A stretch of 64,000 nucleotides of DNA from Rhodoferax sp. GTDB taxonomy: Bacteria > Pseudomonadota > Gammaproteobacteria > Burkholderiales > Burkholderiaceae_C. The stretch is taken from NCBI RefSeq assembly GCF_030697375.1, contig NZ_JAUYQD010000033.1:1-64000 (forward strand). Direction: 5' to 3'. The position numbers and the translations under genes were made by a program. Shown piece after piece: positions 41,885 to 43,440 of this stretch; within the stretch, counting starts at the first letter, position 1; every line of letters begins with the position of its first letter. The notes under the pieces were generated by a model. The model saw only the letters and a program-made list of their open reading frames with translations. It had not been told where the DNA came from and did no database searches.

Positions 41885-43189
41885 ATGACGACACCAACCC
41901 GTGAACAACAAATCGCCGCTCTTGAAAAAGACTGGGCTACCAATCCCCGCTGGAAGGGTATCAAGCGCGGTTACTCCGCTGCTGATGTGGTCCGCCTGCG
42001 CGGTTCCTTCCCCATCGAGCACACCTTGGCCCGCCGTGGTGCTGAAAAACTCTGGAATTTGGTGAACACAGAGCCTTACGTCAATTGCCTGGGCGCATTG
42101 ACGGGCGGCCAAGCCATGCAACAGGTCAAGGCTGGCGTCAAGGCCATCTACCTGTCCGGCTGGCAAGTCGCTGCGGACAACAACTCCTACGCCTCCATGT
42201 ACCCGGACCAGTCCCTGTACCCCGTGGACTCGGTGCCAACCGTGGTGGAACGCATCAATAACACCTTCCGCCGTGCCGACGAAATCCAGCACTCCAAAGG
42301 CATTGACGCTGGCGACAAGGGTTACATCGACAACTTCGCGCCTATCGTGGCCGACGCAGAAGCCGGTTTCGGTGGCGTGTTGAACGCGTTTGAATTGATG
42401 AAGGCCATGATCAAGGCCGGTGCGGCTGGCGTGCACTGGGAAGACCAATTGGCGTCGGTCAAGAAATGCGGCCACATGGGCGGCAAAGTGTTGGTGCCTA
42501 CCGCCGAAGCCTGCCAAAAACTGATCGCAGCCCGTATGGCGGCCGACGTTTGCGGCGTGCCTACCCTGGTGATCGCCCGCACCGATGCCGAAGCTGCCGA
42601 CCTGTTGACCAGCGACTACGACGAAAACGACAAGCCCTTCCTGACCGGTGAGCGCACCGCCGAAGGTTTCTACAAGACCAATAAGGGCATGGACCAAGCC
42701 ATCTCCCGCGCCATTGCTTACGCTGAGTACGCTGACTTGGTGTGGTGCGAAACCGGTACGCCTGACCTGGAATTTGCCAAGAAGTTTGCCGATGCTGTGC
42801 ACGCCAAACACCCCGGCAAGATGTTGGCTTACAACTGCTCGCCTTCCTTCAACTGGAAGAAGAACCTGGACGACGCGACCATCGCCAAGTTCCAGCGCGA
42901 ACTCGGCGCCATGGGTTACAAGTACCAGTTCATCACCTTGGCGGGTATCCACTCCATGTGGTACAACATGTTCGACTTGGCACAAGACTACGTCGCTCGC
43001 GGCATGTCGGCTTACGTTGAGAAGGTGCAAGAGCCTGAATTCGCAGCCCGTGACCGTGGCTACACTTTCGTGTCGCACCAGCAAGAAGTCGGCACCGGCT
43101 ACTTCGACGAAGTGACCACCGTGATCCAAGGCGGCAAGTCCAGCGTAACCGCGCTGACCGGCTCCACCGAAGAAGAGCAGTTCCACTGA
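41885..43189 (+). CDS. aceA: Isocitrate lyase
   Basis: Splits isocitrate into glyoxylate and succinate, the first step of the glyoxylate shunt. The catalytic motif KKCGHMGGK (C195) is intact, and [16 protein letters not shown] lies in the expected place. Other hallmarks are [20 protein letters not shown] and YNCSPSFNW. Length 434 aa, normal for the bacterial enzyme. Start ATG 41885 with GGAGTG upstream. It is monocistronic: a terminator follows at 43210 and two tandem operators precede it, so acetate or fatty-acid control is likely. Malate synthase is not in the window. Confidence 0.96.
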
Positions 43190-43209: not shown

Positions 43210-43250
43210 GGGCTGGGTCTTCCGAAAGGGTGACCCAGCCCTTTTTGTTT
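43210..43250 (+). terminator. Rho-independent terminator of aceA
   Basis: A 10-bp perfect stem GGGCTGGGTC/GACCCAGCCC (43210-43219 and 43232-43241) is followed by TTTTTGTTT. Confidence 0.92.
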
Positions 43251-43321
43251 GGGGTCGCGTCGGACTGAGGTTAAAATTAGGCATCTTCCTGCATCACAAG
43301 AGCGAGAAAGGCACTTTGGTT

Positions 43322-43363
43322 ATGACACCGCGAACTACACCGGCAAAAGTTTTAAGCAAATAA
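43322..43363 (+). CDS. Thr-containing leader peptide of thrS (13 aa, MTPRTTPAKVLSK)
   Basis: A short frame starts at ATG 43322 with AAAGG about 10 nt upstream and stops at TAA 43361. Three of its 13 codons are threonine (ACA, ACT, ACA at positions 2, 5 and 6), far above chance, and two are adjacent. It lies directly before an antiterminator/terminator pair (43371-43440) and 105 nt before thrS. This fits a ribosome-mediated attenuator in which low charged tRNA-Thr stalls the ribosome and lets the RNA antiterminate. The function is inferred from sequence layout only. Confidence 0.7.
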   Translation: MTPRTTPAKVLSK

Positions 43364-43370
43364 GGCCGTA

Positions 43371-43440
43371 GTCCGCGTGCCTTGTGCGCAGACAGCTCCT
43401 GAATTCATAGCAAAGCGCGGACCATTCCGCGCTTTTTCGT
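43371..43440 (+). terminator. Attenuator of thrS: antiterminator and competing terminator
   Basis: The terminator stem AAAGCGCGG/CCGCGCTTT (43412-43420 and 43427-43435) ends in a T-run. The segment GTCCGCG (43371-43377) can pair instead with CGCGGAC (43416-43422), which uses the left arm and loop of the terminator, so the two structures exclude each other. GTCCGCG starts 8 nt after the leader stop codon, so a ribosome finishing the leader would mask it and favour termination. Confidence 0.7.

Follow-up and report, generated by a model that had tools for sequence, protein, structure and literature searches.

A threonine-codon leader upstream of thrS in Rhodoferax sp. as a probable transcription attenuator with relatives across Burkholderiales

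Leader-peptide attenuators are known from a number of amino-acid operons, among them trp, his, and thrL-thrABC of Escherichia coli. The leader upstream of thrS in Rhodoferax sp. resembles them in having a short ORF with control codons, an intrinsic terminator, the three pairings usually numbered 1:2, 2:3, and 3:4, and a stop codon near segment 2. It differs from them in that the gene it would control encodes a tRNA synthetase, in the small number of Thr codons, in the presence of an 18-nt, near-invariant block at the start codon, and in having no Rfam match at gathering score. Two other kinds of control are known for synthetase genes. In E. coli, thrS has a translational operator at which ThrRS binds next to the thrS ribosome-binding site (RBS); the same gene is under control in both cases, but here a leader ORF and an intrinsic terminator precede it. 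The T-box of Firmicutes controls synthetase genes by antitermination in response to uncharged tRNA, a likeness to the logic proposed below, although the T-box binds the tRNA directly. The T-box model had no match in our Rfam search of the leader stretch, and no other family reached its gathering score, with weak matches only in a permissive search; a T-box or other Rfam element was therefore rejected as an account of the leader.

A leader nearer to this one in its gene has been proposed in Streptomyces lividans, in which a thrL peptide with two Thr residues (MKRVRPFLETTPGFVPAR) and a leaderless start lies before thrS, and for which the accessible text of the paper states that there is no clear U-rich terminator (PMC8079986). 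The shared feature is the Thr leader in front of thrS; the organism belongs to another phylum, and the comparison is with the published description. The word thrS is absent from the main text of an attenuator survey, as far as its accessible part extends (PMC2965389). For Cupriavidus metallidurans, the accessible part of one study assigns to thrS a mapped start that bears the locus tag Rmet_R0015 (PMC9045368). No description of a thrS leader in the order Burkholderiales was found in the literature searched, most subscription papers and all supplements being outside its reach. The kind of device is thus already known, and two features of this example are unusual: the near-invariant start-codon block and a repeat copy that holds the switching segment.

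The locus lies in a 64,000-nt stretch of a Rhodoferax sp. contig (NZ_JAUYQD010000033.1, positions 1 to 64,000), called the window here, for which an original prediction had proposed a Thr-codon leader peptide with an antiterminator/terminator switch before thrS. The features are collected in Table 1. The predicted ORF is present, with 13 codons from the ATG at 43322 to the TAA at 43361-43363 and three of them for Thr, and so is a plausible RBS, though at 10 nt it is rather distant from the ATG. The distance from the stop codon to GTCCGCG (43371-43377), given before as 8 nt, is 7 nt by our count. GTCCGCG is the exact complement of CGCGGAC (43416-43422), as claimed, and the latter is held in the 5' arm of an intrinsic terminator, AAAGCGCGGA-CCAT-TCCGCGCTTT, which is followed by a short U-tract and ends 32 nt before the thrS ATG. 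The naming of the downstream gene also stands: we take the 637-aa ORF to be thrS by recognition of its ThrRS sequence, and the best matches of its N-terminal part in named genomes are records of Rhodoferax and other Comamonadaceae. The gene upstream of the leader, ORF 41885-43189, is presumably isocitrate lyase. Between it and the putative thrS promoter, a second hairpin with a U-tract was seen by eye at 43210-43246, unreported by the terminator scan; it seems to mark where transcription of the upstream gene ends.

Table 1. Features of the thrS leader locus in the window
Feature	Position	Strand	Basis
-10-like TAAAAT, putative thrS promoter 5' of the leader	43272..43277	+	sequence; TAAAAT recurrence among leaders
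RBS of leader ORF, GAGAAAGG	43304..43311	+	sequence; 10 nt before ATG
AAGGCAC, able to pair with GTGCCTT (43377-43383)	43308..43314	+	inverted-repeat search
Near-invariant block GGTTATGACACCGCGAAC, leader start codon inside	43318..43335	+	18-mer genome search
Leader peptide ORF MTPRTTPAKVLSK, Thr codons 2, 5, 6	43322..43363	+	sequence; codon statistics, 92 leaders
Segment 1, CGCGAACUAC, within Thr codons	43329..43338	+	pairs with 43368-43377, 9/10 positions
Dispersed genomic repeat copy holding leader stop codon and segment 2	43358..43411	+	repeat search/alignment
Segment 2, GUAGUCCGCG, partner of segment 1 or (last 7 nt) segment 3	43368..43377	+	pairing analysis
Terminator hairpin (segments 3:4), U-tract to 43437	43412..43435	+	terminator scan, inverted repeats
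thrS, threonyl-tRNA synthetase, 637 aa	43468..45381	+	ORF; sole full-length match in own genome

Taken by itself, the window makes a modest impression. Its fold is unremarkable (z = -1.62), the one terminator-like site in the stretch scanned is within the range of shuffled sequences (mean 0.6, sd 0.9), and a sigma-70 scan of that stretch detected no promoter. Since such single-window statistics are weak, it is the strong conservation that carries the case. We collected 139 thrS upstream regions, of which 125 were distinct, 95 with a leader and 30 without. Ninety-two of the 95 leaders were retained, all distinct and the window's included; those left out were one locus in which the scan saw no terminator and two with a short upstream sequence or an identical leader. 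The leaders come from the best-matching thrS loci (30 + 30 + 80) and are not a random draw, and the shuffles and Fisher tests reported here ignore shared ancestry.

The most easily recognized part of the leader is its 18-nt block. With up to one mismatch allowed, 46 of the 399 genomes searched within the order contain it, each of them once, compared to a single genome for a reversed control pattern. In all 40 of the loci fetched from these 46 matches, which represent 8 families, the block sits 113-280 nt before thrS, and a hairpin with a U-tract (which the scan requires) lies 3' of it. A class-wide sample of 369 genomes yielded a 17-mer version in 6, namely, three genomes of the window's family and three from beyond the order that match with one mismatch; these last three, from the 365 genomes of the sample that lie outside the order, are fewer than the nine matches of the reversed control pattern. 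The block was thereby ruled out as a general motif of the class and looks like a mark of this order.

Within the leader ORF, Thr triplets are concentrated in the reading frame. At positions 2-13 of the 92 leaders, frame 0 has 357 of 1,104 (a count that takes in triplets past an early stop), frame 1 has 6 of 1,104, and frame 2 has 129 of 1,104. Codon 6 specifies Thr in 73 of 91 leaders, as ACA (34), ACG (17), ACC (16), or ACT (6); its third base thus varies across all four Thr codons, and it is the amino acid that is kept, with synonymous choice free. The conservation of Thr codons in relatives that the original prediction had asked about is therefore present, although some leaders have Thr at codons 2 and 5 only. 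Codon 2 is ACA in 91 of the 92 leaders and codon 4 is CGA in every one, a near fixation to the letter that suggests constraint at the RNA level as well. From the frame-specific enrichment and the recurrence of differing Thr-rich peptides, we infer that the leader ORF is translated and selected for Thr. A transcription start downstream of 43363 had been named as evidence that would speak against the scheme, and the putative promoters point the other way: TAAAAT lies 30-90 nt 5' of the leader ATG in 56 of the 92 leaders and between the leader and thrS in one.

Besides the GTCCGCG/CGCGGAC pairing (2:3), the leader can form a pairing that was absent from the earlier account, in which segment 1 and segment 2 match with one A-C mismatch. 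Segment 2 can thus pair either back with the Thr codons or forward with the 5' arm of the terminator, so that there are three competing pairings, 1:2, 2:3, and 3:4. In the window, the duplex energies are -12.8 kcal/mol for 1:2, with none of 200 shuffles as good, and -15.5 kcal/mol for 2:3. Among all 92 leaders, the 1:2 duplex beats its shuffles at p≤0.05 in 57 and is no better in 35, and the 2:3 duplex fails to beat its shuffles at the same level in 57. Pairing of the 2:3 type was found in relatives. Segment 2 could be anchored through its 1:2 pairing in 83 of the 92 leaders and not in the other 9, and 80 of the 83 have five or more contiguous 2:3 pairs; this way of anchoring makes the high share of 1:2 pairs in the 83 partly circular. 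In 42 of the 83, an A-C mismatch occupies position 11. The alignment of relatives proposed as a check bears out the conserved Thr codons and does not demonstrate covariation: no compensatory change was found in 1:2 or 2:3 among Comamonadaceae, with permutation tests flat save a weak excess at position 15 (50 of 2,000 permutations), because there is next to no variation in the cores, above all in the seven core bases of segment 1.

The placement of the stop codon is specific to the leader frame. In frame 0, 78 of 92 leaders have their stop between -15 and +8 nt relative to segment 2, compared to 13 of 60 and 22 of 64 for the other two frames, counted among leaders having a stop in that frame. 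Two properties that define an attenuator are accordingly seen in the sequence arrangement, a stop placed so that a terminating ribosome would mask segment 2 and a predicted antiterminator and terminator that would be mutually exclusive.

RNA ending with segment 3 was folded while a ribosome footprint of assumed size was masked at three places. For the window, pairing of segment 3 with upstream RNA has a probability of 0.59 in the ribosome-free state, 0.95 when a ribosome is stalled at codon 5, and 0.49 when it has reached the stop codon. The mean gain on stalling over the 92 leaders is +0.165 relative to no ribosome and +0.154 relative to the stop state, and 12 control sets in which the stop-to-terminator region was shuffled gave about 0 (sd 0.016 and 0.019). 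Counting differences greater than 0.1, 39 of the 92 leaders rise and 9 fall relative to no ribosome, and 41 rise and 12 fall relative to the stop state. Several 18-mer loci outside Comamonadaceae had no stall effect in these foldings. On average, then, masked folding gives the on/off logic predicted for attenuation, and the mechanism proposed at the outset is supported.

We conclude that thrS is very probably controlled by a ribosome-mediated transcription attenuator that responds to charged tRNA-Thr. The parts, their conservation, the selection for Thr, and the masked-folding preference come from sequence and comparison, and from them we infer translation, stalling, termination, and the response to threonine. 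The RNA, starting 5' of 43304, would carry the 13-codon Thr leader ORF. With ample threonine, the ribosome would reach the stop codon at 43361 and cover the start of segment 2 (43371-43377), and after its release segment 2 would refold onto segment 1; in either state, segment 3 would be free for segment 4, and transcription would end near 43437. If threonine were short, the ribosome would stall at Thr codon 2, 5, or 6 and cover segment 1. Segment 2 would then pair with segment 3 before segment 4 was made, the terminator would fail, and thrS would be transcribed.

Other families of the order have leaders whose segment 2 and 3 sequences differ from those of Comamonadaceae. The search for a partner of segment 3 in these families started 6 nt before the stop codon, so that positions were partly set by design, and 3 of 35 leaders in which the scan saw no terminator were dropped. 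A partner was found at p≤0.05 in 8 of the remaining 32 (median p, 0.11; combined Fisher, 1.5e-9, with kinship ignored), and none of the four loci labelled f35 was among them. In 18 of 20 other-family 18-mer loci, the best segment 3 pairing begins between -6 and +8 nt relative to the stop codon, where shuffles expect 11.9, a control that covers 20 of the 32 leaders. Nine of 12 other-family loci have a tRNA-Val (GAC) gene in front of thrS. We take the tag Rmet_R0015 of C. metallidurans to denote an RNA gene 5' of thrS, a reading that would be in keeping with a tRNA-Val gene at this place.

The range of the leader extends beyond genomes with an 18-mer match. Sixty thrS upstream regions from 49 families were hand-picked among genomes without such a match, one to three per family, from 128 genomes with thrS. 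In 13 of the 60, an ORF starting with ATG has three or more Thr within six codons; by the same count Arg, the next most frequent amino acid, reaches 5, and the antisense strand gave 1. With 200 shuffles of the same regions, the mean was 0.5 and the maximum 3. Examples of these peptides are MQRTSTKTITYLG, MIMQLNRTTTTS, MFKRTTTTRISR, and MAVRTTTTHP, and three further regions of the 60 have an Arg-Thr core. An Arg-Thr core of the form CGA-AC(T/G) was noted in seven loci as common to the leaders of different families, with the rest of the peptide differing. Relatives across the order Burkholderiales thus bear the same or a similar predicted device. In 44 of the 60 order-wide regions no leader was found under the two criteria applied, so the device is not universal.

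Within Comamonadaceae, the leader is absent from 30 of the 125 distinct upstream regions, and the hairpin is kept in 26 of the 30. A -10-like site lies 4-37 nt before the hairpin in 22 of these 26, compared to 125-194 nt in leader-bearing regions (56 measured). The attenuator model does not account for this retention, which would be odd if the hairpin were the output of the switch only; a further function of the hairpin, or tolerance of weak constant termination, may explain it. In at least seven leaderless regions, a GC-rich hairpin and U-tract were noted soon after a -10-like site, and one leaderless region (L030) still has a remnant of the RBS block.

The hairpins without leaders have a bearing on two alternatives. 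One is that the conserved RNA is an operator bound by ThrRS, with autoregulation by mimicry in the style of E. coli thrS, and that the ORF is incidental. Such an operator would account for the 26 hairpins kept without a leader and for a block that is fixed at wobble positions and 5' of the ATG, beyond what the peptide needs. However, Thr at codons 6, 7, 9, and 11 with varied third bases, together with a frame-specific stop position, indicates translation, other families share Thr-rich peptides and not the RNA block, and the hairpin loops vary among relatives; we therefore consider an operator very unlikely. The other is that the leader exerts translational or decay control, by sequestration of an RBS or through mRNA stability, with the GC-rich hairpin acting as a processing or stabilizing stem-loop rather than as a terminator. 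The closeness of the hairpin to the presumed 5' end in leaderless regions is in keeping with this, as is the lack of an obvious Shine-Dalgarno sequence of thrS's own in the window. The U-tract after the hairpin in 40 of 40 loci (one being asked for by the scan) argues against it, as does the fact that segment 2 targets the 5' arm, which fits antitermination, and control of this kind appears to us highly improbable. Finally, the idea that a short ORF happens by chance to lie between a promoter and a constitutive terminator, which the weak single-window statistics might encourage, is almost certainly wrong given the order-wide recurrence and codon statistics, and chance or artifact was ruled out by the 18-mer counts, the adjacency to thrS, the Thr codon statistics, and the other Thr-rich leaders.

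To return to the attenuator, the segment on which its switching would turn lies in a dispersed repeat. The 63-nt stretch from leader to terminator, used as a query, matches at least 39 other places in its own genome at E≤10, with the best 40 of 63 candidates scored; among the scored matches, at least 19 have E≤0.001, nine span nearly the whole query, and many cover the 3' half only. The repeat has a consensus of about AAATAGGCCTCTAGCCC..GTGGAATATGCGCAAGCAGCTCCTGAATTCATAGCAAAAG, and in an alignment of 20 copies, the leader stop codon and segment 2 fall inside the aligned stretch. At 43368, 43372, 43375, 43380, 43381, and 43382, the thrS copy differs from the majority, and each of these six differences adds a pair with segment 1 or the RBS. 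In the 20-copy alignment, departures fall at 6 of 16 paired positions and 2 of 28 others (Fisher p = 0.019, or 0.049 when 10 upstream repeat positions are added), a contrast that is inflated because about half of the copies were found via matches to the rest alone. With the 9 copies that span segment 2, the counts are 6 of 16 and 4 of 28 (p = 0.13), and other copies of the repeat depart as much in the paired stretch. By a simple match score, the 3' part of the repeat is present in 29 of the 92 leaders. Judged from the alignment, the repeat copy in the leader of the window's clade is real; the departures are at most suggestive of a copy reshaped for the switch.

Further pairings can be drawn at the leader start. 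The helix between AAGGCAC and GTGCCTT could close the leader RBS with its second arm, a pairing that reaches p≤0.05 on its own in no more than 14 of the 92 leaders. Position -5 is a pyrimidine in 76 of the 92, as for a candidate GGU/ACC hairpin at the start codon, and other families are able to form a shifted GCG/CGC stem there. A more elaborate reading, which we regard as speculative and on balance unlikely, is that the 18-nt block is a start-codon sensor, with the RBS in a helix, the AUG in the loop of the GGU/ACC or GCG/CGC hairpin, and the Thr codons in 1:2; the decision would be made at the first codons (Thr 2 and 5), and the switching segment of the Rhodoferax clade would derive from an inserted, reshaped repeat.

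Relative to the original prediction, the analysis adds the 1:2 pairing with the Thr codons, the order-wide range, and the repeat copy in the leader, and possibly also a leader RBS that can be closed by a helix. With the attenuator, Burkholderiales would control an essential translation gene by a logic unlike that of the E. coli textbook case. Its leader core is easily searched, making the element annotatable in many genomes. Should the origin of the switching segment in a dispersed repeat be confirmed, the recruitment of a repeat to an RNA switch would be traceable here.
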